A stretch of 64,000 nt of DNA from an uncultured Flavobacteriaceae bacterium (GTDB taxonomy: Bacteria > Bacteroidota > Bacteroidia > Flavobacteriales > Flavobacteriaceae). The notes beneath the pieces are model-generated. The model saw nothing but the letters and a program-made list of their open reading frames with translations, had not been told where the DNA came from and made no database searches. The position numbers and the translations under genes were made by a program. The DNA is taken from assembly GCA_947500525.1 (NCBI GenBank), contig CANMSH010000005.1, positions 1 to 64,000 on the forward strand. Direction: 5' to 3'. Position 1 is the first letter of the stretch. Each line of letters opens with the position of its first letter. Below are positions 1 through 11,671 of the stretch, piece by piece.

Positions 1-143
1 CTACTATCATCTAAGATGGTCATAGATACGGTTCCGTCTGGTGCTTGTGTTACATACTTCAACAACTTTGGTGCTGCTTGTGTTTGTGCAAACGTTGCTA
101 CTACTATTAAACTAAATACTAAGGTTAAAACTACTTTCTTCAT
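1..143 (-). CDS. Secreted protein, N-terminal fragment (cut by window edge)
   Basis: The first 47 codons of a gene that runs leftwards off the window. The start is ATG at 143 to 141. The peptide begins MKKVVLTLVFSLIVVATFAQ and continues with TQAAPKLLKYVTQAPDGTV. This is a classic flavobacterial Sec signal peptide, with a short basic N-terminus, a hydrophobic core and cleavage just before 'Q'. The mature part is too short to assign a family. A 7-bp inverted repeat lies 35 bases upstream (178 to 193). Export is well supported; function is unknown. Confidence 0.7.
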   Translation of the reverse strand, partial: MKKVVLTLVFSLIVVATFAQTQAAPKLLKYVTQAPDGTVSMTILDDS

Positions 144-733: not shown

Positions 734-1915
734 TCATTTTAGACTATTCAAAATAAAGTCAATCGTACTATTCTTATTTGAGTTTACCGAGAAAGCCGTA
801 GTTCTATGTTTTGCCTTAATAGCATATCCCTTTTCTATCATGTCCTTAATAGTGTCTATATATTCTAAAGAGACTTTCCCTGTCAATAATAAATTTAGAT
901 CATTTCCTTCTTTATAATAGTCATACACTTTCTTCAGGCCAGTTAAGTATAAGTAATCTTTTGTAAAACCACCTCCACGATGTACACGCACTGTAATATA
1001 AAATGCTGTTTCCCGATCAAGGTCATAGGTATTATGCAACAGTCTAAAGGTTTTAGAAAAAGAATAGCCTTTTGCCAAACTATCTACCGCTAATACGCGA
1101 TAGGCCAATTCTTTCAATCGTTTCACAGTTAAACTACCAGACATAAATTCACTAAACACTGCTAGACCTTCTTGAGATTCCACATTATTTGGAAAGCCAT
1201 GTGCAAAAATCTTTAAAGGATGTAATAAGCCATTCATGGTTGTCACCATATGCACTCCTATCTCATGATTGGTCAATACAGCAAGTTCATTTTCTGAAAA
1301 AGTATGGTTTTCATTAAGAACTAAGGTTTTTAGGTTATTTAACACCATTGCAATAGCACCCATTGTATTCGAAAACTCTATCTTATATGAGAAATCGTAT
1401 TGTTTTGAAAAGTTTCGGAACTGTGTTTCAGAATCTTTTGCTGAATATTTTGGTGCAAAAATTGGGTCGCCTTTATTTTCTTCTTCAAAGTGTAGAATAA
1501 ATTTTGCATTTTCTACATCTTGTTCTGTTGGAGTTCCAAAAGAATGTAAACTGTTGTAATAGAATTTTTTGCCCTCTCCAACCGTCTCAATACATCTCAC
1601 CAAACCAGAATAGAAATAGACGATTTCTTCATAAAGATTCTTCAACTCTTCGTCTTCGATCAATTCGATAGCTTGTGTAAAAAACTCTCGATGCAATTTG
1701 AACTTATCAAAATCTAATTTTGGATATACAAATATGGGATCCGAAAGATACTTTGAAGCAAAAAAACGTGTTTTCTCCTCTTCTATATTTGTAGGGTTTA
1801 CATAACTTAATAATTCAATTCGTTTTACTAAGTTATCTATATACGTATCTATCTGAAAAAGTGCCTTTGACGCCACATTGCTATCATTCATTCTATCTAA
1901 GCTTGTGTTGGGCAA
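734..1915 (-). CDS. DUF1704 / QEGLA-motif zinc metallopeptidase-like protein
   Basis: A 393-residue protein of the family often named 'flavohemoglobin expression-modulating QEGLA motif protein' (DUF1704). The zincin site is visible: HEIGVH at residues 217 to 222 supplies two His ligands and the catalytic Glu, and the QEGLA Glu at 249 is the probable third ligand. The eukaryotic members of this family include the tubulin tyrosine carboxypeptidase MATCAP, so trimming of a C-terminal residue is a reasonable model. The bacterial substrate is not known. No signal peptide is seen, so it is probably cytoplasmic. It is the last gene of a six-gene minus-strand operon, 2 bases after the amidohydrolase stop, which suggests that it acts on the product of the ATP-grasp ligase or on a related peptide. 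Confidence 0.85.
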   Translation of the reverse strand: MPNTSLDRMNDSNVASKALFQIDTYIDNLVKRIELLSYVNPTNIEEEKTRFFASKYLSDPIFVYPKLDFDKFKLHREFFTQAIELIEDEELKNLYEEIVYFYSGLVRCIETVGEGKKFYYNSLHSFGTPTEQDVENAKFILHFEEENKGDPIFAPKYSAKDSETQFRNFSKQYDFSYKIEFSNTMGAIAMVLNNLKTLVLNENHTFSENELAVLTNHEIGVHMVTTMNGLLHPLKIFAHGFPNNVESQEGLAVFSEFMSGSLTVKRLKELAYRVLAVDSLAKGYSFSKTFRLLHNTYDLDRETAFYITVRVHRGGGFTKDYLYLTGLKKVYDYYKEGNDLNLLLTGKVSLEYIDTIKDMIEKGYAIKAKHRTTAFSVNSNKNSTIDFILNSLK

Positions 1916-1917
1916 AT

Positions 1918-2748
1918 TTACACTTTATGAACGTTATAAAAAGCTACAGCATGATTTTTTAAGTCAGTTCTCAACGCCTTCTCTATACAAGCAACTACTT
2001 CTGGATAGTATATTTGATTCAATTCATCGCAGTACACTTTTTTTGCTTCGGTAGCTAAAACTAAGGTATTTTTAAAGTGTTCGGTTATAAATTTTAAAAA
2101 ATAGCCGTTACCTTGAAAAGTATCATTAATCTTGGAAGTAGATACAATATCATTGGGCAGCTTTATTTTTTCTAGAATTTGCCTCCATGACTCTATTTCA
2201 TTTCTAAAACGATCGTTATCTACGTTGGCTGTTCCGAGATTCCATGTAGGTACCTCTCGTGTCCAGCGTCTCCAATTATAACTATGCATATCATAAACGA
2301 TACATACACCAAACTTTTCCTCTAGCTTTTGAATCAAAGCAAACACGACTTTGTAAAAGTTTTCATGCTTTTGCAAACTTTTACTTTTCATTTCATCAGA
2401 TAAAGGATTCTTCCATAATTCTTTTCCCCAAGCATCGGTATAAATAGCATTATTTGGAGCTCTATTTAAATCGTATTCAAAACGAGAGTCCATACCAGCA
2501 ATCACAATAGGATGTGATTTTACCATTTCTTTCGTTTCTGGATCTTCTTCAAACCAGCGGTCATATTCAGTATGCAAACAGTTTTCCCAAAGTTCTCTTC
2601 TAAATTGATGTCCGTCGTGAACAGCACCGCATGCATAATGTACATAGGCATCAATTTTTAATGTAAATGAGTAATCCTCAGCGACTGCTTCAAAAGTTTC
2701 TTCGTTTTTAATTTTTTGTATAATGTCTTGAATAGATAATCGAATCAT
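1918..2748 (-). CDS. N-formylglutamate amidohydrolase family protein
   Basis: A 276-residue protein of the N-formylglutamate amidohydrolase (HutG/FGase) fold. Visible family landmarks are VHYACGAVHDG near the N-terminus, a GMDSRFEYDLNR segment around residues 85 to 100 and the metal-site motif VYDMHSYNWRR in the middle. Classical members release formate from N-formyl-L-glutamate in histidine breakdown. No hut gene is nearby. Instead it sits between a sulfurtransferase (6-base gap) and a DUF1704 peptidase (2-base gap), downstream of a glutathione-synthetase-like ligase. This argues for an amidohydrolase working on a glutamate-containing peptide or an N-acyl amino acid. The family call is firm; the substrate is inferred. 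Confidence 0.85.
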   Translation of the reverse strand: MIRLSIQDIIQKIKNEETFEAVAEDYSFTLKIDAYVHYACGAVHDGHQFRRELWENCLHTEYDRWFEEDPETKEMVKSHPIVIAGMDSRFEYDLNRAPNNAIYTDAWGKELWKNPLSDEMKSKSLQKHENFYKVVFALIQKLEEKFGVCIVYDMHSYNWRRWTREVPTWNLGTANVDNDRFRNEIESWRQILEKIKLPNDIVSTSKINDTFQGNGYFLKFITEHFKNTLVLATEAKKVYCDELNQIYYPEVVACIEKALRTDLKNHAVAFYNVHKV

Positions 2749-2754
2749 GTCAAA

Positions 2755-3597
2755 TCATTTTTCAATTGGTAAATTGTGATTTCCTCCCCAGTCTGTCCAT
2801 GAACCGTCATAAACGACCAAGTTTCTAACCTCAGAAATATCGGCAGCTAACGCTAAAATACAGGCTGTTATACCCGACCCACAAGAAAAAATTACTTCTT
2901 CCTTGTCTTTTGTTAGCTTTTCGAAAATCGGCTTTAACTCTTCCTTTTTCAGCATGATTCCATCTTTTTGGAGAGTAGAAAACGGTATATTAACAGAGGA
3001 AGGGATATGCCCGTTTCTTAGATCGTGACGAGGTTCTTTTTCGGTAGCATCAAACCTTCCTTTAGATCGGGCGTCGAATATTCCTGTACTCTTATCATCG
3101 ATCACCTTTAATACTTTATCAGCATCGCAAAACATACTTTCATTGTAACTTGCCTTAAAGTTTCCTTTTTCAATTTCTATATTAAAAGGGCTTTCTGTAG
3201 GGAAATTAAACCGCTTCCATGCTGGTAAGCCACCATCTAAAACGGCTATGTTTGTATGTCCCATACTTTTAAACATCCACCATACTCTTGGGGCACTATA
3301 TATTCCTAGGTCATCATAAACAACAATAGCTGAATCTTTATTTATTCCGAGTGCTTGTGCTTTCTTTTCAAAGTCATTCTCTGTTAGCATTGTGTTTGGC
3401 AATGCTGATTTTTGATCACTAAACACATATTTTATATCAAAAAAACGTGCATTCTTTATACGCTTCTCCTCAAGAATTTCTTTATTAGAACCAGTAATTT
3501 TTTTCATGGTGGCATTTAGAATAACCAAATTAGAGGCATTTAAATGTTTCATGAGATATTCTGGAGAAACCAATGGATTGTCAAGTATTAACTTCAT
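2755..3597 (-). CDS. Sulfurtransferase, 3-mercaptopyruvate type (tandem rhodanese)
   Basis: A 280-residue protein with two rhodanese domains. The N-terminal, catalytically inactive half carries VVYDDLGIYSAPRVWWMFKSMG. The C-terminal active half carries IFDARSKGRFDA and the active-site loop CGSGITA with the persulfide Cys at residue 239. CGSG(I/V)T is typical of 3-mercaptopyruvate sulfurtransferases, whereas thiosulfate sulfurtransferases usually have CRxGxT. Length fits the SseA/TST family. It would move sulfur from mercaptopyruvate to a thiol or cyanide acceptor. In this operon it follows the ATP-grasp ligase by 18 bases and precedes the amidohydrolase by 6, so a role in thiol metabolism linked to the ligase product is plausible. 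Confidence 0.88.
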   Translation of the reverse strand: MKLILDNPLVSPEYLMKHLNASNLVILNATMKKITGSNKEILEEKRIKNARFFDIKYVFSDQKSALPNTMLTENDFEKKAQALGINKDSAIVVYDDLGIYSAPRVWWMFKSMGHTNIAVLDGGLPAWKRFNFPTESPFNIEIEKGNFKASYNESMFCDADKVLKVIDDKSTGIFDARSKGRFDATEKEPRHDLRNGHIPSSVNIPFSTLQKDGIMLKKEELKPIFEKLTKDKEEVIFSCGSGITACILALAADISEVRNLVVYDGSWTDWGGNHNLPIEK

Positions 3598-3615
3598 AGG
3601 ATAAAACTTTATAAA

Positions 3616-4650
3616 CTAGGCCTCTTCGACTTGGCGTCTTAAATTGGTTTTACGTCTAAAAGCGGCACTTTTTTCTAGTACTTTACTTTCAATAAAATCG
3701 ATTACTTTCTCTTGTAACTTCACTTTGTATACTTTATTTATATACGTAATACCTCCAGGGCTCATTACATTTACTTCTACCAACTTTCCTCCTATTACAT
3801 CAATACCTACGAAAAACAAACCATCACGTACCAACCTTGGTCCTATTTTCTTGCATAATAGTTTTTCTTGAGCTGTTAATTTATGTTTTGCTATCGTTCC
3901 TCCTGCTGATACATTCGACCGATGATCTTTATCTCCTGGTATACGTCTCATTGCTCCAATTGGCAAACCATTTAGCAGTAAAATACGAACATCTCCTTTA
4001 TCTGCTCCTTCTATATACTCTTGAAGGATTACATAATCTGATGAGCCATCACTCTTATTGATATAGAAGTCTAATAAAGAATTAATATTTCCCATAGCGG
4101 CCTTTTCAATTAAGATAACACCAGAACCACCAAAACCATTCAGTGGTTTTAATATCATTTTATCAGATGCCGATTCTTCGATCATGCGTATCAAATAGTT
4201 TTTGTTCTTTGAAACGTGTGTAACTGGGATAATTTCGTTCTCAGGATCTTCAAAAACAGCGGTGTATAATTTATTATTCGCCTCTCGCATTCCTTGTAAT
4301 GAATTACAGATGAAAACATCGTCTTTTACAGAATCTAGAAAGTTAAGCATCAGAGGATCTAAAGGAGGTTCGGCTCTAAAAAAAATGGCATCAAAACCTG
4401 CAAGCGGAAGCATTTCTTCTCTCGTTTTAGTGTTTTTATAAAACGATTTAATAGAATTTGAAACTTTATCAGCGCGGTTTAAGACTGTACAAAATGCATT
4501 AGTTACACTATTTCTAATTGTTAAATTCGCTGGTGTGCAAATCGCAACACCATGACCTCTTTTTACACATTCATGTATGAGTGCTAATGAAGTATCGTTT
4601 TCGGGAGATTTAATGTCCTCCCATGGATACATTAAAAAACAGATATTCAT
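3616..4650 (-). CDS. Glutathione-synthetase-like ATP-grasp ligase
   Basis: A 344-residue ATP-grasp enzyme close to prokaryotic glutathione synthetase (GshB, about 316 residues). The N-terminal substrate domain starts MNICFLMYPWEDI. The glycine-rich ATP loop KPLNGFGGSGV lies near residue 170. The downstream acceptor and metal region follows GshB closely: DVRILLLNG, RRIPGDKDHRSNVSAGG, GLFFVGIDVIGG and EVNVMSPGG. GshB has 'NVTSPT' where this has NVMSPGG, so the acceptor pocket may differ. No glutamate-cysteine ligase (gshA) is in the window, so true glutathione synthesis is not shown. Its operon partners suggest formation of a glutathione-like or other glutamyl-type peptide. Confidence 0.85.
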   Translation of the reverse strand: MNICFLMYPWEDIKSPENDTSLALIHECVKRGHGVAICTPANLTIRNSVTNAFCTVLNRADKVSNSIKSFYKNTKTREEMLPLAGFDAIFFRAEPPLDPLMLNFLDSVKDDVFICNSLQGMREANNKLYTAVFEDPENEIIPVTHVSKNKNYLIRMIEESASDKMILKPLNGFGGSGVILIEKAAMGNINSLLDFYINKSDGSSDYVILQEYIEGADKGDVRILLLNGLPIGAMRRIPGDKDHRSNVSAGGTIAKHKLTAQEKLLCKKIGPRLVRDGLFFVGIDVIGGKLVEVNVMSPGGITYINKVYKVKLQEKVIDFIESKVLEKSAAFRRKTNLRRQVEEA

Positions 4651-4661
4651 AATAATATTAT

Positions 4662-5111
4662 TTAGTTAATTGATAAATATGTCTTTACTTCTGCATGCTC
4701 AGGATGCATCGTATTCGGGTTATATACGTCAAAATCGGCGCTATATTTTCTATCAAATTTTAAGTTCCAGATCGTTTCCCACGTACTTACTACACAGTCT
4801 GGTAATTTACCCTCAGAAACAAATTCCTTATACTTATTTTCAAGAATTTCTATTCCTATTAATCCATTCGGAACACTCGCCAACGTCGTCACCTGAAAAC
4901 CTAATATTGTAGTGTAGTAACCATTTTCATTAGATTCATACTCCGTATATATATTGTATAAATCTTCAGAAACAATATTCGGAATTCTTGTCGCAATATT
5001 CTCATTGTACCATTTATCCCACAAGCTATTAATATCGATTTGAGCTTGATTGTCGGCATTCTTGGTTCTTACCGAAATACCTATAATTTTAAAAGATGGT
5101 ATTGTTATCAT
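4662..5111 (-). CDS. GyrI-like / AraC effector-binding domain protein
   Basis: A 149-residue stand-alone effector-binding domain, the fold used by GyrI/SbmC and by the C-terminal part of some AraC and MerR regulators to bind small molecules. Support comes from the opening beta-strand IIGISVRTKN, a helical segment with IDINSLWDKWYN, and the C-terminal PDCVVSTWETIWN followed by ADFDVYNPN, typical of the family's second half. There is no DNA-binding domain and no signal peptide. The gene overlaps the symporter gene by 4 bases (ATGA type), so the two are translationally coupled. It could be a ligand sensor or a binding protein for the compound handled by this operon. Family assignment is by pattern only. 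Confidence 0.65.
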   Translation of the reverse strand: MITIPSFKIIGISVRTKNADNQAQIDINSLWDKWYNENIATRIPNIVSEDLYNIYTEYESNENGYYTTILGFQVTTLASVPNGLIGIEILENKYKEFVSEGKLPDCVVSTWETIWNLKFDRKYSADFDVYNPNTMHPEHAEVKTYLSIN

Positions 5112-6433
5112 TTTACTTCTTCATAATGATCATCCCAATCTTTAGGCCTTGGCTTTCCTAACTTCCCTACAGATTTAGCTACCAACATTGATACCGTAGC
5201 GTCACCGGTTACATTAATAACAGTTCTGCACATATCTAAAGGTCTATCTACGGCAAAAATTAATGCCAATCCTATAGCCAATTTATCCGCTGGAAAACCA
5301 ACCGACTCTAAAACAATTACTAACATAACCATACCAGCACCTGGAACCGCTGCGCTCCCAATTGATGCTAACAATGCCGTTAAAATTATAGTGAGTTGAT
5401 CAACAAACGTTAGATCAAAACCTAATGCTTGTGCAATGAAAACCGCCGCTACTGCTTGATACAAGCTAGTTCCGTCCATATTAATAGTGGCACCAACTGG
5501 TAAAACGAAACTTGAAACTTCTTTATCTACACCGATATGCTCTTCAACTCTCTCCATAGTAACAGGTAATGTGGCGGCACTACTACTAGTTGAGAAAGCC
5601 AATAATTGCGCTGGACTTATTTGTTTCAAAAACCAAAATGGATTCTTTTTAGTAATTGTAGCCACTAACAAACTATAAAAAACAATCATCAAAAATAAAC
5701 CAAAAACGACAACCCCAGCATATTTTAAAAGTGCATACAATAAATCTGGATCACCCGAAGAAACCACAACATTTGCCAATAATGCAAAAACGGCAAACGG
5801 TGCAGAAAGCATTATCAAATCGACCATTTTTAATACGACATCGTTTAAAGAATCGAAAAAATCCTTCAATGGCTTGGCCTTTTTCTCTCCAATGAGCAAC
5901 ATCGAAATGCCTAAAAATATTGCAAAAAATATAACCTGTAACATTAACTTATTGTTACTTAATGCTGAAACAGCATTATCAGGCACCATATCTATTATAA
6001 AATCCATAGGACCACTTTCTTTTTGTCTAGAAGCCTCTGATATTTTATCTTGAACTCCACTATCTCCGGCATAAGTTTCCGTCAATTTGGCAATCGTTTC
6101 ATCCGAAACTCCGTCACCAGGTTGCATAACGTTCACCAACACTAATCCTATAGAAATTGCAATAACCGTGGTTAAAATATAGATTCCTATCGTTCTTAGA
6201 CCGATGTTAGCAAATTTCGAAATATCTTTAAGATCAGATATCCCTTTAATCAGAGATGCTAAAATTAGAGGGATAGCTATCAACTTTAGTAATTTTACAA
6301 AAACTGTACCCAGCCACTTTATCCACTTACCAACAAATTCTGATCCTCCATCAATCTGAAGCATTAAGAATCCGAAAACTAAACCAAATAACATTCCGAT
6401 AAGGATTTGCCAATGCAGTGCTAATTTTTTCAT
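5108..6433 (-). CDS. Dicarboxylate/amino acid:cation symporter (DAACS, GltP-like)
   Basis: A 441-residue inner-membrane symporter of the glutamate/aspartate/dicarboxylate family. The serine-rich hairpin motif STSSSAATLP, the cation-site motif NMDGTSLYQ and the substrate-binding segment of TM8 (FAVDRPLDMCRTVINVTGDA) are all present. DMCRT is a pattern found in acidic-substrate transporters: the Asp holds the amino group and the Arg the side-chain carboxylate. Expected role is Na+ or H+ driven uptake of glutamate, aspartate or C4-dicarboxylates. It is the first gene of the six-gene operon and overlaps the next gene by 4 bases, which suggests it feeds an acidic amino acid to the downstream ligase pathway. 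Confidence 0.93.
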   Translation of the reverse strand: MKKLALHWQILIGMLFGLVFGFLMLQIDGGSEFVGKWIKWLGTVFVKLLKLIAIPLILASLIKGISDLKDISKFANIGLRTIGIYILTTVIAISIGLVLVNVMQPGDGVSDETIAKLTETYAGDSGVQDKISEASRQKESGPMDFIIDMVPDNAVSALSNNKLMLQVIFFAIFLGISMLLIGEKKAKPLKDFFDSLNDVVLKMVDLIMLSAPFAVFALLANVVVSSGDPDLLYALLKYAGVVVFGLFLMIVFYSLLVATITKKNPFWFLKQISPAQLLAFSTSSSAATLPVTMERVEEHIGVDKEVSSFVLPVGATINMDGTSLYQAVAAVFIAQALGFDLTFVDQLTIILTALLASIGSAAVPGAGMVMLVIVLESVGFPADKLAIGLALIFAVDRPLDMCRTVINVTGDATVSMLVAKSVGKLGKPRPKDWDDHYEEVK

Positions 6434-6596: not shown

Positions 6597-7250
6597 ATGG
6601 CAAGTATTTTAGATTTATTAAATAGTGATATAGGCAAAACTTTAATTAGTGGTGCTAGTCAACAGTTAGGGCAAGACAAAGCAAAAACCACATCAGCGAT
6701 GAGTGCTGCTTTACCCTTAATTTTAGGTGCTATGAAAAACAATGCAAAAACACCAGAAGGTGCTGCAGGATTGCTAAAGGCATTAGGTAACGATAAACAT
6801 GGAGGTGGAATTTTAGATAATTTAGGAAACATCCTTGGTGGTGGTGGTATTGATGACAATGTGATGAAAGACGGTGCTGGCATCTTAGGACATGTTTTTG
6901 GTGGCAAAGAGCAAAACGTTGCAAACGCTGTTAGTAAATCTAGTGGTGTTGATATGGGCTCAGCAATGAATATTTTAAAAGTAGCGGCTCCTGTATTAAT
7001 GGGCTTTTTAGGTAAACAATCACGTCAACAAGGTGTTTCTGATCAAAGCGGAATTGGAAGTTTACTTGGCGGAATGCTTGGCGGTGGCGGTGGCCAAAAA
7101 GAACAAAGTATGGTAGAGCGTTTATTAGATTCTGATGGAGACGGAAGTATTATTGATGATGTCGCAGGTATGCTTCTTGGCGGAGGCGGTGGATCTCAAA
7201 AGAAAAGTGGACTTGGTGGATTACTAGGTGGGCTTTTCGGTAAAAAATAA
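6597..7250 (+). CDS. DUF937 domain protein, glycine-rich
   Basis: A 217-residue protein of the DUF937 family. The N-terminal helical bundle (MASILDLLNSDIGKTLISGA, then LPLILGAMKNNAKTPEGAAGLLKAL) is followed by Gly-rich linkers and a second helical part with SKSSGVDMGSAMNILKVAAPVLMGFLG. The C-terminus is a run of glycine-rich LLGG repeats ending GLLGGLFGKK. No signal peptide is apparent. Function of the family is unknown. It is a single-gene unit, divergent from the symporter operon and convergent with the giant repeat protein, and it ends at a strong hairpin terminator. Confidence 0.8.
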   Translation: MASILDLLNSDIGKTLISGASQQLGQDKAKTTSAMSAALPLILGAMKNNAKTPEGAAGLLKALGNDKHGGGILDNLGNILGGGGIDDNVMKDGAGILGHVFGGKEQNVANAVSKSSGVDMGSAMNILKVAAPVLMGFLGKQSRQQGVSDQSGIGSLLGGMLGGGGGQKEQSMVERLLDSDGDGSIIDDVAGMLLGGGGGSQKKSGLGGLLGGLFGKK

Positions 7251-7270
7251 GACGAATACAATTAACATAA

Positions 7271-7305
7271 AAAATAGCCCTCAACATAATGTTGAGGGCT
7301 ATTTT
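7271..7305. terminator. Bidirectional hairpin terminator
   Basis: A perfect 17-bp inverted repeat (arms 7271 to 7287 and 7289 to 7305) with core GCCCTCAACAT/ATGTTGAGGGC and A-rich and T-rich flanks on either side. It sits between two convergent genes, so it can terminate both as a rho-independent terminator. Confidence 0.9.
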
Positions 7306-7327
7306 CATTTTAGAAACATAACTATAA

Positions 7328-10300
7328 TTATCTTAACACTACTTTCTTAGTGAACGATTTTCCATTACCATCATTTACCTTCATTAGGTAGATACCTCGC
7401 GGTAATGAATGCAAACTAAATACTATTTCATCGTCAGTATTTGTTCGTTGCATTCGATGTGTAATATTACTACCTGAAAAGTCAAATAAAGAAATGTTCA
7501 TTTTTTTACTGTCCATTTTACTCATTGCAACCTTTATGACATTCGTAGCTGGATTAGGATATACCGTTAACTTACCATTCATTGTATCGTCATCCTCACG
7601 AGTTACTTTAATAGGGTTCGATAAATCGAAACATCCTTCTAGATCATTAGCATTCTTGCCTTTCTCTGCACCTATTAAACCATCTTCATAACGTAAATAC
7701 CATATAAAACAAGTACCTGGCCCTGCCTCATCGAAATCTACACTTTCTACTGCTGCTAATGTTGGTGGCAAGCCAAGAATAGTACCATCTTCATCTGTTA
7801 TCACCCATGTACTATTACTTCCAACCCCATTACCATCCAAACTAATCTCACTTACATAATCTGCTTCACCATCTACAAAGAATCTAAAAGGTCCTCCAGT
7901 AATCTCACCTGCTTCTGGTTGATTTCTGTACACATGTATATTATTTGAAAAATCATAGGTTCCAAATAAATCTGTTAATGCATTGTTACCAACTTCAAGC
8001 CCTACCAATCCATCATCATAACTCAAGTGCCATATTAAACAAACGCCAGCACCTGCACCATCAAAATCAACAGCTTCTGGAGTTGGCGGTAAGCCTAAAA
8101 TTTTTCCAGTGTCATCTGTAATTACCCATTGTGAATTAGCTCCACTATCCCAAGTCAGTTCTATTCCTGAAACATTATCAGCAATTCCGTCACCAACACA
8201 AAATTCAAAAGGTCCTCCGGTAATCTCGCCTCCATTAACGTGAATTTTTCTAACTACTGTTAACGGATTCGATAAATCAAAACAGCCTTCTAAATCATTT
8301 GCATTCTTGCCTACGGCTGCTCCTTCTAATCCATCTTCATAACGTAAATACCAGATCAAACATGTACCTGCGCCTGCGCCATCAAAGTCTACACCTTCCA
8401 CTGCTTCTAATGTTGGTGGTAAACCTAAAATGTTCCCTTGATCATCAGTAATAATCCAAGTACTATTGCTTCCTACACCTGTACCATCTAAAGTAATACC
8501 TGATACATTATCAACCTCGCCATCTACAAAGAACTCAAAGGGCCCTCCACTGATCTCTCCTGCTTCTGGTTGACTACGTACAACCGTTAAAGGATTCGAT
8601 AAATCAAAATATCCTTGTAAGTCATTTGCATTCTTGCCTACGGCTGCTCCTTCTAATCCATCTTCATAACGTAAATACCAGATCAAACATGTACCTGCTC
8701 CTGCGCCATCAAAGTCTACACCTTCTACTGCTTCTAATGTTGGCGGTAAACCTAAGATGTTCCCTTTATCATCAGTAATAACCCAAGTACTATTGCTTCC
8801 TACACCGGTACCATCTAAAGTAATACCTGATACATTGTCAACCTCGCCATCTACACAGAAGTTAAAAGGTCCTCCTGCAATCTCTCCTGCATTTGGCGCT
8901 GCTTTTCTAACAACTGTTAACGCATTCGATAAATCAAAACATCCTTCTAAATCATTTGCATTCTTGCCTACAGCTGCTCCTTCTAATCCGTCTTCATAAC
9001 GTAAATACCAGATCAAACATGTACCTGCTCCTGCGCCATCAAAGTCTACGCCTTCTACTGCTGCTAATGTTGGTGGTAAACCTAAGATGTTCCCTTGATC
9101 ATCAGTAATAACCCAAGTACTATTGCTTCCTACACCTGTACCATCTAAAGTAATACCTGATACATTATCAACCTCGCCATCTACAAAGAACTCAAAGGGT
9201 CCTCCACTGATCTCTCCTGCTTCTGGTTGACTACGTACAACTGTTAAAGGATTTGATAAATCAAAATATCCTTGTAAATCATTTGCATTCTTGCCTACGG
9301 CTGCTCCTTCTAATCCATCTTCATAACGTAAATACCAAATCAAACATGTACCTGCTCCTGCGCCATCAAAATCTACGCCTTCTACTGCTTCTAATGTTGG
9401 AGGTAAGCCTAAAATATTGCCTTGATCATCAGTAATAACCCAAGTACTATTGCTTCCTACACCAGTACCATCTAAAGTAATACCTGATACATTGTCAACC
9501 TCACCATCTACACACAAGTTAAACGGACCTCCCGCAATTTCTCCCGCGTTTGGCGCTGCTTTTCTAACAACTGTTAACGGATTCGATAAATCAAAACAGC
9601 CTTCTAAATCATTTGCATTCTTACCTACGGCTGCTCCTTCTAATCCGTCTTCATAACGTAAATACCAGATCAAACATGTACCTGCGCCTGCGCCATCAAA
9701 GTCTACGCCTTCCACTGCTTCTAATGTTGGTGGTAAACCTAAAATGTTCCCTTGATCATCAGTAATAACCCAAGTACTATTGCTTCCTACACCTGTACCA
9801 TCTAAAGTAATACCTGATACATTATCAACCTCACCATCTACAAAGAACTCAAAAGGTCCTCCACTGATCTCTCCTGCTTCTGGTTGACTACGTACAACTG
9901 TTAAAGGATTCGATAAATCAAAATATCCTTGTAAATCATTTGCATTCTTGCCTACGGCTGCTCCTTCTAATCCATCTTCATAACGTAAATACCAAATCAA
10001 ACATGTGCCTGCTCCTGCACCATCAAAATCTACGCCTTCTACTGCTTCCAATGTTGGTGGTAAACCTAAAATATTGCCTTTGTCATCAGTAATAACCCAA
10101 GTACTATTGCTTCCTACACCGGTACCATCTAAAGTAATACCTGATACATTGTCAACCTCACCATCTACACAGAAGTTAAACGGGCCTCCCGCAATCTCTC
10201 CTGCATTTGGCGCTGCTTTTCTAACAACTGTTAACGCATTCGATAAATCAAAACAGCCTTCTAGATCATTTGCATTCTTACCTACGGCTGCTCCTTCTAA

Positions 10301-11671
10301 TCCGTCTTCATAACGTAAATACCAGATCAAACATGTACCTGCGCCTGCGCCATCAAAATCTACGCCTTCCACTGCTTCTAATGTTGGCGGTAAGCCTAAA
10401 ATATTACCTTGATCATCAGTAATAACCCAAGTACTATTGCTTCCTACACCTGTACCATCTAAAGTAATACCTGATACATTATCAACCTCGCCATCTACAA
10501 AGAACTCGAAAGGTCCTCCGCTAATCTCTCCTGCTTCTGGTTGATTTCTATATACATGTATATTATTCGAAAAATCATATCTACCTTTCAAGTCTGTCAA
10601 AGCATTATTTCCTTCTACAAGTCCTGTAAGACCATCGGCATAACTCAAGTGCCATATCAAACATGTGCCCGCGCCTGCACCATCAAAATTTACCGCTTCT
10701 GGTGAAGGTGGTAAGCCTAGTATTTTTCCTTTATCATCGGTAATGACCCATTGTGAGTTCGTGCCACTATCCCAAGTTAGTTCTATACCCGAAACATTAT
10801 CTGCCACACCATCACCAACACAAAAAGTGAAAGGACCTCCTGTAATCTCTCCACCATTTATCTTTTCTTTTCTTACAACTTTAACCGGATCAGAAAAATC
10901 ATAACACCCTTCTAAATCAGTAGTTGCATTGTTACCAACTGTTAGACCTGTAAGTCCATTTGAATAGCTCAAATACCAAATGAGACAAGTTCCTTCTCCT
11001 GCCCCTTCAAAATTTACTACTTCTGGGTCAGAAGGTAATCCTAAAATTACCCCCGCTTCATCCGTAATAACCCATTGCGCGTTCGCACCACTTGCTCCAT
11101 TGATTCCAACCCAAACAAAGTCATCTTCCCCATCTCCGACGATAAACTCAAAAGGTCCCCCTTCTATAACACCGCCTTCAGGTTGATTTCTATACACACT
11201 TATACTATTTGAAAAGCTATAAGTTCCATGCAAATCGCTGTTTACATTATTTCCAGCGACTAAACCAGTGAGTCCATCAGAGTAACTTAAGTGCCATATT
11301 AAACATAAACCAGCACCTGCGCCATCAAAATCAACCGCTTCAGGTGCCCCTGGTAAGCCAAGTATTTTACCTGTACTATCAGTAATAACCCATTGAGAAT
11401 TTTGACCATCGTTACCTGTAAGTTCTATACCAGAAACATTATCAGCTTTACCATCTCCGACACAAAATTCGAAAGGACCACCCGTAATTTGACCACCATC
11501 GCAACCAAAATTAGAATTCACCTCTACTTCTGGGAAATTGTGTTTTGTAGTATCGTTAGCGAATACTTGCGTATTGAATGCTATACTTAAAAGAGCAAAA
11601 ACGGCGAATTGCCATTTGTTAAAAAAAGATGTTTTCAGGAAACATCCATAAAAAAGTAATTTTGTTTTCAT
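7328..11671 (-). CDS. Giant repetitive T9SS-secreted surface protein
   Basis: A 1447-residue exported protein. Residues 1 to about 38 form a long signal peptide ending in TQVFA. From about residue 59 to 1360 there are 12 tandem repeats of about 110 residues with landmarks GGPFEF, VSGI, WVITD, ILGLPP, DGAGAGTCLIW and an N-A-x-DL-x-G-x-x-D(F/L)SN close. The last 82 residues are a type A T9SS sorting domain, starting GKLTVYPNPATN and ending GIYLMKVNDGNG and FTKKVVLR. The architecture fits a cell-surface adhesin or matrix protein attached or released through the Por system. Odd and even repeats differ in a fixed cysteine pattern, and repeats 4 to 10 are nearly identical. The binding partner is unknown. 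A two-component system is transcribed divergently upstream. Confidence 0.9.
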   Translation of the reverse strand: MKTKLLFYGCFLKTSFFNKWQFAVFALLSIAFNTQVFANDTTKHNFPEVEVNSNFGCDGGQITGGPFEFCVGDGKADNVSGIELTGNDGQNSQWVITDSTGKILGLPGAPEAVDFDGAGAGLCLIWHLSYSDGLTGLVAGNNVNSDLHGTYSFSNSISVYRNQPEGGVIEGGPFEFIVGDGEDDFVWVGINGASGANAQWVITDEAGVILGLPSDPEVVNFEGAGEGTCLIWYLSYSNGLTGLTVGNNATTDLEGCYDFSDPVKVVRKEKINGGEITGGPFTFCVGDGVADNVSGIELTWDSGTNSQWVITDDKGKILGLPPSPEAVNFDGAGAGTCLIWHLSYADGLTGLVEGNNALTDLKGRYDFSNNIHVYRNQPEAGEISGGPFEFFVDGEVDNVSGITLDGTGVGSNSTWVITDDQGNILGLPPTLEAVEGVDFDGAGAGTCLIWYLRYEDGLEGAAVGKNANDLEGCFDLSNALTVVRKAAPNAGEIAGGPFNFCVDGEVDNVSGITLDGTGVGSNSTWVITDDKGNILGLPPTLEAVEGVDFDGAGAGTCLIWYLRYEDGLEGAAVGKNANDLQGYFDLSNPLTVVRSQPEAGEISGGPFEFFVDGEVDNVSGITLDGTGVGSNSTWVITDDQGNILGLPPTLEAVEGVDFDGAGAGTCLIWYLRYEDGLEGAAVGKNANDLEGCFDLSNPLTVVRKAAPNAGEIAGGPFNLCVDGEVDNVSGITLDGTGVGSNSTWVITDDQGNILGLPPTLEAVEGVDFDGAGAGTCLIWYLRYEDGLEGAAVGKNANDLQGYFDLSNPLTVVRSQPEAGEISGGPFEFFVDGEVDNVSGITLDGTGVGSNSTWVITDDQGNILGLPPTLAAVEGVDFDGAGAGTCLIWYLRYEDGLEGAAVGKNANDLEGCFDLSNALTVVRKAAPNAGEIAGGPFNFCVDGEVDNVSGITLDGTGVGSNSTWVITDDKGNILGLPPTLEAVEGVDFDGAGAGTCLIWYLRYEDGLEGAAVGKNANDLQGYFDLSNPLTVVRSQPEAGEISGGPFEFFVDGEVDNVSGITLDGTGVGSNSTWIITDDQGNILGLPPTLEAVEGVDFDGAGAGTCLIWYLRYEDGLEGAAVGKNANDLEGCFDLSNPLTVVRKIHVNGGEITGGPFEFCVGDGIADNVSGIELTWDSGANSQWVITDDTGKILGLPPTPEAVDFDGAGAGVCLIWHLSYDDGLVGLEVGNNALTDLFGTYDFSNNIHVYRNQPEAGEITGGPFRFFVDGEADYVSEISLDGNGVGSNSTWVITDEDGTILGLPPTLAAVESVDFDEAGPGTCFIWYLRYEDGLIGAEKGKNANDLEGCFDLSNPIKVTREDDDTMNGKLTVYPNPATNVIKVAMSKMDSKKMNISLFDFSGSNITHRMQRTNTDDEIVFSLHSLPRGIYLMKVNDGNGKSFTKKVVLR
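7590..11497 (-). repeat. Twelve tandem repeats (about 328 bp each, paired as 657-bp units)
   Basis: Twelve coding repeats lie inside the surface-protein gene. The best conserved block (about 8245 to 10545) repeats with an exact 657-base period: the string TCTCTCCTGCTTCTGG begins at 8554, 9211, 9868 and 10525. The true unit is thus a pair of 109 to 110-residue repeats. Pairs near the ends (repeats 1 to 3, 11 and 12) are more diverged and are slightly different in length. This is the pattern expected when an array grows by unequal exchange in its middle. Confidence 0.92.

Follow-up and report, generated by a model that had tools for sequence, protein, structure and literature searches.

What do the products of the operon at positions 734 to 6433 of this stretch make or break down? 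The window, which is the initial 64 kb of contig C5 from a flavobacterial genome of 3.59 Mb that is 90.5% complete, carries six minus-strand genes there, among them those for a GshB-like ATP-grasp ligase, an amidohydrolase of the N-formylglutamate amidohydrolase family (FGase) and a zincin-type metallocarboxypeptidase of the MATCAP/DUF1704 (QEGLA) family. A reading made from the letters alone (the sequence-only reading) had suggested that the operon serves a thiol or a glutamyl peptide. We found that the ligase, the FGase and the MATCAP enzyme make up a core which is a conserved unit in many bacterial phyla. We tentatively propose, with confidence that stops just short of even, that this three-enzyme core serves to build and remodel a peptide-like amide compound that is acidic and distinct from glutathione, and that the core is an old, partly mobile module which is apparently tied to osmotic or ionic adaptation. 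Handles beginning with L and G denote loci and genomes, respectively.

The three core genes were adjacent and in one direction at 734-4650, with a sulfurtransferase gene inserted. The ligase gene (3616..4650, minus strand) encodes a member of the PRK12458 subfamily, scoring 452 bits on NF009110 (cut-off 408). The FGase gene (1918..2748, minus) encodes a presumed zinc enzyme of 276 aa, and the MATCAP gene (734..1915, minus) encodes 393 aa from the TTG at 1915 or 385 aa from the ATG at 1891, which is the likelier start. A check of the window confirmed all six open reading frames of the sequence-only reading, with gaps of at most 26 bases; the maximum of 18 given earlier did not hold, as the last gap is probably 26. 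The intergenic gaps were 11 bases between the GyrI-like gene and the ligase gene, 18 between the ligase and sulfurtransferase genes, 6 between the sulfurtransferase and FGase genes and 2 between the FGase and MATCAP genes, the last becoming 26 if MATCAP starts at the ATG. The corresponding FGase-MATCAP gap in the same-genus relatives L076 and L077 was 27 bases. The GyrI-like and symporter genes overlapped by 4 bases. Promoter and terminator scans gave signals at chance level.

The linkage of ligase and MATCAP was then counted, among the matches listed, in 149 genomes that belong to the genus, family and order of the window. The count used 52 ligase matches of at least 336 bits, 60 of the 64 MATCAP rows and a distance of 6 kb; fragments of MATCAP (two in G001:C36, one in G012 and one in G005) and the ligase fragments of G013 and G031 were omitted. 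The ligase family scored above its cut-off in 41 of the 149 genomes. All 52 full-length ligases had a MATCAP gene within 6 kb, and 52 of the 60 counted MATCAP genes had a ligase nearby. By genome, 46 held both genes, none the ligase alone, 6 MATCAP alone and 97 neither. Because every counted ligase lies within 6 kb of a MATCAP gene, the linkage is not a product of chance, and the scattering in close relatives that would have spoken against the sequence-only reading was not seen. Of the eight MATCAP genes away from a counted ligase, five (G001, G013, G015, G031 and G082) came from a short contig or had a contig end or a ligase fragment next to them.

Inspection of 51 neighbourhoods (L033-L083) revealed 37 with a window-type ligase (type A) and 14 with a second type (type B), which is approximately 30% identical to type A and is partnered by a longer MATCAP of 607-628 aa. 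FGase and MATCAP were present in 37/37 type A loci. In 10 of the 14 type B loci an aspartoacylase/AstE-like gene (PF24827) was found 3' of the ligase. Profile comparison revealed no sequence relation between these proteins and the FGase, and their equivalence therefore rests on position. In an even draw of 395 genomes across the phylum MATCAP was found in just 19, so the module is patchy there; 2 of the 16 neighbourhoods from this draw (L104 and L105) were composite operons comprising symporter, type A ligase, (sulfurtransferase,) FGase, long MATCAP and type B ligase. In several same-genus or related loci (L089, L090, L092, L054 and L075) the operon was apparently decayed or cut, with MATCAP in pieces and ligase or FGase missing. 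G012 retained symporter, sulfurtransferase and a MATCAP remnant alone, and some of the decayed-looking loci were contig ends or runs of N.

GTDB species were also scanned with a 22-sequence ligase alignment, which matched at least 553 relatives; the 80 best of these were taken, whatever their neighbours. Genes around them were predicted by codon-trained gene calling. By profile search, MATCAP accompanied the ligase in 74 of the 80 loci and all three genes were present in 68. Four of the six loci with ligase and MATCAP and no FGase match were near contig ends, and among the six ligase-only loci L120, L167 and L185 begin near a contig end. By record title, the trio was found in Planctomycetota, Poribacteria, Pseudomonadota, Bacteroidota, Calditrichota, Actinomycetota, Acidobacteriota, Gemmatimonadota, Verrucomicrobia/Kiritimatiellae and Deltaproteobacteria, which amounts to nine or ten phyla in records that are often metagenome bins with unchecked labels. 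The usual gene order was FGase, MATCAP, ligase, and among adjacent same-strand pairs as called an overlap of exactly 4 bases was observed in 35 of 61 FGase-MATCAP pairs and 30 of 70 MATCAP-ligase pairs. This recurrence, with the linkage in relatives, bears out the statement in the sequence-only reading that such ligase neighbourhoods recur.

Tandem ligase genes were present in 6/80 wide-scan loci. In a tree of 84 ligase sequences, the extra copies of five of the six tandem loci formed one clade (support 1.0) and the type A ligases a separate one (support 0.996); L124, in which the ligase of Planctomycetes bacterium Pan216 (7001-8044) is split over two frames, was omitted from this tree. The planctomycete loci L151 and L153 had two long MATCAP genes and three ligases in a row. 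The trio was also found on plasmids. On rhizobial plasmids it is annotated as N-formylglutamate amidohydrolase, QEGLA protein and glutathione synthetase; Sinorhizobium meliloti 1021 carries it on pSymB, and it was present on a plasmid labelled Roseateles (marked unverified). Two Photobacterium plasmids have a type A ligase followed directly by an FGase-MATCAP fusion. No study of the module was found in a literature search, for which most subscription papers were beyond reach; a 2009 survey of ATP-grasp amidoligases may mention such operons.

Next, we considered whether the ligase could be an ordinary GshB engaged in glutathione synthesis. It carries both Pfam GSH-S domains, its best match among PDB sequences was 1gsa (129 bits, against 43 bits for RimK), and it just passed the cut-off of NF003573, named 'glutathione synthase' (275.4 vs 272 bits). 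However, it failed the GshB equivalog TIGR01380, with 229.4 bits against a cut-off of 299.05. At residue 294 the ligase has NVMSPGG where GshB has NVTSPT. The sequence-only reading had pointed to this departure, which proved to be common to the family, [ST]PG[GA] replacing SPT in 22/22 aligned relatives; the Thr of the SPT motif presumably contacts glycine. The earlier observation that the window lacks gshA could likewise be extended, as PF04107 had no match in the window's own genome (90.5% complete) and PF04262 none in 149/149 genomes, the window's included, the PF08886-type gshA not being among the families sought. The window's genome also encodes BshC of bacillithiol synthesis, and the sole other match of the ligase in this genome was a RimK-family gene. 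The second outcome that would have spoken against the sequence-only reading, a glutathione-making ligase with a gshA elsewhere in the genome, thus did not emerge within the families sought. Because two gshA families were not found and BshC is present, glutathione synthesis by this unit is very unlikely. The glutathione pathway was rejected on the failed TIGR01380 match, the two gshA families not found and the replaced SPT motif, and we give a GshB identity next to no credence.

The MATCAP/DUF1704 protein is predicted to be a carboxypeptidase by family membership and motifs. It scored 317 bits on PF08014 (Pfam threshold 27 bits) and 306.4 bits on TIGR02421, short of the cut-off of 338.65. HEIGVH was found at residue 217 and QEGLA at residue 248 (numbering from the TTG), as the sequence-only reading had described, and the kinship with tubulin carboxypeptidases which it had drawn was matched by similarity to human MATCAP (7z5g, E value of 7e-6 by sequence). 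A more distant group of short MATCAP genes with no ligase or FGase nearby was observed in L098 and L099 (127-154 bits to the MATCAP profile); the short MATCAP of Pseudoalteromonas adjoins a redoxin gene, and that of L099 had the top Pfam score in the 395-genome draw.

The FGase scored 47.5 bits on PF05013 (cut-off 28.9) and was the single FGase match in the genome. An alignment of 42 sequences showed conservation of H44, D93LNR96, D153xH155 and E234, with His44, Asp153 and His155 invariant in 42/42. The FGase profile had no match among PDB sequences. The AlphaFold2 model of the window protein (predicted local distance difference test score, pLDDT, of 94.7) matched 2q7s and 2odf with E values of 1e-10 to 6e-7 (2q7s, 1.3e-10), at 12-15% identity to these solved structures. 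No hut gene was found among the six operon proteins, to which the search for hut was confined, in line with the sequence-only reading.

FGase and MATCAP were also found joined in one protein. This was the case in five loci of the window's order, in L103 from the window's class, on the two Photobacterium plasmids and on one Vibrio plasmid. Profile comparison matched the N-terminal domain of the long MATCAP form to FGase (probability 84%, E value of 8e-6; with wider alignments 96%, E value of 3e-9). In 37 sequences of this domain no column had His in at least 80%, two columns having it in 25 and 27 sequences. Because the conserved His columns are missing from it, as against FGase residues invariant in 42/42 sequences, this domain looks catalytically dead. 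The AlphaFold2 model of a long MATCAP (pLDDT 92.1) matched human MATCAP with an E value of 2e-9. Much weaker matches were to many metallohydrolase/phosphorylase folds, including a poly-gamma-glutamate hydrolase (E value of 3e-3) and FGase (E value of 0.03), and may belong to the N-terminal domain.

The remaining genes of the window operon are lineage additions and not part of the core. The sulfurtransferase (2755..3597, minus) is a two-domain rhodanese of the 3-mercaptopyruvate sulfurtransferase type (PF00581) with a CGSGIT loop, and scored 223 bits on NF008557, below the cut-off of 250. The sequence-only reading had taken it, together with the ligase and the two hydrolases, as a sign of a thiol or glutamyl peptide, and a GshB-like ligase beside a sulfurtransferase in one operon would suit a low-molecular-weight thiol pathway. 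However, the sulfurtransferase was present in just 14/37 type A loci and 0/80 wide-scan loci, leaving 23 and 80 loci, respectively, where it was not found, and BshC shows bacillithiol synthesis to be represented in the genome already. Since the sulfurtransferase is not core and BshC is present, the thiol reading was rejected as the main one; we regard it as improbable.

The symporter (5108..6433, minus) is an SDF-family protein (PF00375, 429 bits; GltP model 262 bits, below the cut-off of 638) with the motifs NMDGT and DMxRTxxNVTGD, which we take to signify the Glu/Asp type. It was directly upstream of the ligase in 23/37 type A loci and within three genes in 30/37. It is a neighbour in the window's family; as a core member it was rejected outside that family, being present in 3/80 wide-scan loci, one of these a weak 71-bit match. 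A chorismate synthase gene upstream of the symporter was tested in L053 and seems frequent elsewhere, judged by length and place. Because of this, part of the symporter linkage may be an old chromosomal neighbourhood. The GyrI/Cass2-like small-molecule binding protein (4662..5111, minus; 149 aa) matched PF14526 (76 bits) and PF06445 (46 bits), with no DNA-binding domain among its matches, and is a possible ligand sensor. Its gene was found in 2/37 type A loci, both in the window's genus, and in 0/80 wide-scan loci.

A lead to the physiological role came from the flanks of the wide-scan loci. MscS-type channel genes flanked 11/80 loci against 0.75 expected (P = 5e-10) and CorA 6/80 against 0.26 expected (P = 3e-7), where the expectation is the density in 34 genomes chosen to include MscS loci, without L132 and L179, and the observed counts cover all 80 loci. 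All 11 MscS matches were confirmed as PF00924, and in L118 and L119 the MscS gene overlaps the ligase gene as called. Raw flank counts over the 80 loci, which have no control density, were 5 for CNNM and 7 for amino-acid/cation-chloride-type permeases. A second lead came from Photobacterium damselae. An RNA-sequencing study lists A0J47_RS17020 (glutathione synthase GshB) as up 38.4-fold and the consecutive tag A0J47_RS17025 (QEGLA protein) as up 27.5-fold at 1% relative to 3% NaCl; the authors rank the former among the top genes and take it for glutathione synthetase (PMC10308900). Because two Photobacterium plasmids have a type A ligase followed by an FGase-MATCAP fusion, this tag pair is probably the module described here. 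Taken together, the module appears tied to osmotic or ionic adaptation.

The analysis shows the operon and how widely it is conserved, the fusions, the fold, the conserved active sites and that the two gshA families sought are lacking; the substrates, the order and direction of the reactions and the osmotic role we infer as follows. The ligase would form an acyl-phosphate from a carboxylate, which probably belongs to a glutamyl or aspartyl compound, and couple it to an amine that is not glycine. The C-terminal residue of the acidic product would be trimmed off by MATCAP, and an amide, either N-acyl or in a side chain, would be cleaved by the FGase or, in some relatives, by the aspartoacylase-like enzyme. 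The tandem ligases of some lineages point to the addition of more than one residue. In the window, uptake of the acidic amino acid would fall to the SDF symporter, and the GyrI-like protein could act as a sensor of the product. We favour add-and-trim cycling of an acidic, peptide-like compound because relatives of MATCAP trim tails, because N-acyl acidic amino acids are what FGase and aspartoacylase enzymes cleave, and because the ligases of this family are amide-forming.

The same enzymes might instead act on a macromolecule. The ligase could add a residue to an acidic protein or ribosomal peptide, at a carboxylate of the C terminus or of a side chain, with MATCAP removing it and FGase cutting a branch amide, in a cycle comparable to tubulin tyrosination and glutamylation. 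RimK glutamylates a protein, and the SPG motif is common to RimK and the ligase; moreover, the long MATCAP form matches the human MATCAP structure. Human relatives of MATCAP cut C-terminal residues off tubulin tails and the family includes deglutamylation (PMC10499314). However, the ligase is nearer GshB than RimK (129 vs 43 bits), and no further protein or peptide gene was seen travelling with the module, small genes being prone to escape the gene calling used. We consider this cycle on a protein tail rather unlikely. Somewhat less likely still is catabolism, in which imported N-acyl or amide-linked acidic peptides would be degraded by MATCAP and FGase for glutamate, and the ligase would serve as a salvage or storage step. 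The Glu/Asp-type symporter upstream in the window's family and the two hydrolases in the operon are consistent with this, but the symporter was found in 3/80 wide-scan loci, one match being weak, and the most constant partner of MATCAP is an ATP-consuming ligase. Returning to the add-and-trim cycle, a broader version is doubtful: that the cycle, on an acidic compound or protein tail, is an undescribed phylum-spanning osmotic or ionic system with MscS as an occasional partner, a degenerate FGase scaffold, and a bacterial parallel to the tubulin detyrosinase family, whose ancestral setting it may even be.

Several observations weigh against the proposed role in making and remodelling an acidic amide compound under osmotic or ionic control. 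Unless it is regulated, an operon that encodes one ligase together with two hydrolases would run a futile cycle. The module is dispensable in the window's genus, since some of the species there have it complete whereas others have a decayed one or none at all. Symporter-side MATCAP genes without ligase and FGase were found in G072, G023 and G046, where no contig end or fragment excuses the separation; G072 is a one-contig genome with no full-length ligase, and G023 and G046 have a type B ligase elsewhere. Among the four type B loci without an aspartoacylase-like gene 3' of the ligase, L041 has a true FGase, and L037, L038 and L040 have neither gene beside them. In the wide scan L140 and L157 had full flanks yet no FGase match, and the Poribacteria loci L125, L126 and L174, with the ligase alone despite full flanks, are true exceptions. 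On the Vibrio plasmid no ligase was found within 8 kb of the fusion, and the short MATCAP genes of Pseudoalteromonas and L099 have no ligase nearby. As for the osmotic lead, the P values overstate the case, because the families were picked post hoc in the same data, the loci are related and none of these genes was seen beside the window operon. The MscS and CorA neighbours occur in a minority of loci, several of them in Planctomycetota and so not independent, and neither was seen beside the operon of the window. The P. damselae identification comes from consecutive tags, annotation and the gene order in two other Photobacterium species, not from sequence, and the induction reported in that study is at low, not high, salinity.

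Other features were observed around the operon. Downstream of it, in the window's genus, are tandem, near-identical, secreted-looking proteins of about 131-145 aa (window 3-143; L076 4702-6071; L077 4159-6020), and the contig end of the window falls within the apparent first copy of this array. A DUF937 gene at 6597-7250 is divergent from the operon, and a similar protein is encoded in the same-genus L054 (11994-12641). A protein of 1447 aa encoded at 7328-11671 contains numerous internal repeats that resemble one another and has a Por secretion tail (PF18962).

Overall, the sequence-only reading stands as regards the recurrent neighbourhood, the lack of gshA, as far as two families were sought, and the motif departure, and falls as regards the thiol and the symporter as core; beyond it, the analysis brought out FGase-MATCAP fusions, a second FGase domain that is degenerate, replacement by an aspartoacylase-like gene, tandem ligases and neighbours related to ions or osmosis. 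If the proposal is correct, many genomes (the wide scan met no fewer than 553 ligase relatives, and the 80 best were studied) mislabel the ligase as glutathione synthetase and the carboxypeptidase as a flavohemoglobin modulator. The P. damselae expression study has probably already mistaken the module ligase for GshB (PMC10308900). The module would represent a new bacterial metabolite or tail modification and give a biological setting to the bacterial relatives of tubulin detyrosinases, and the hypothesis would be directly testable in a tractable host, Sinorhizobium meliloti 1021, through its pSymB trio.

The module can be compared with several known systems. GshB (1gsa; TIGR01380) shares the ATP-grasp family and GSH-S domains and is the closest solved structure by sequence, whereas the window ligase falls in its own subfamily, has SPGG for SPT and is of a type found beside MATCAP in 52/52 cases counted in relatives. 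HutG (PF05013; 2q7s, 2odf) shares family and fold with the window FGase, which differs in its 12-15% identity, its operon without hut genes and its coupling to ligase and MATCAP. In the N-acetylglutaminylglutamine amide (NAGGN) osmoprotectant system, a GNAT-ATP-grasp ligase (TIGR03103) acts with an asparagine-synthase-like amidotransferase and a peptidase. What the two have in common is the idea that an ATP-grasp ligase, accompanied by a peptidase, produces a peptide-like solute with an osmotic function; in contrast, neither a GNAT nor an asparagine-synthase domain was among the matches of the six window proteins, and the ligase did not match TIGR03103. TIGR02421, 'Flavohemoglobin expression-modulating QEGLA motif protein', supplies the annotation name of the module's MATCAP genes on plasmids, but the window MATCAP is below the cut-off of that model and the name is silent on ligase or FGase. 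Human MATCAP/TMCP (PF08014; 7z5g) has the family, the HExxH and EGLA motifs and the structural match to the long form in common with the bacterial proteins, which differ in being fused to or beside an FGase and an ATP-grasp ligase.

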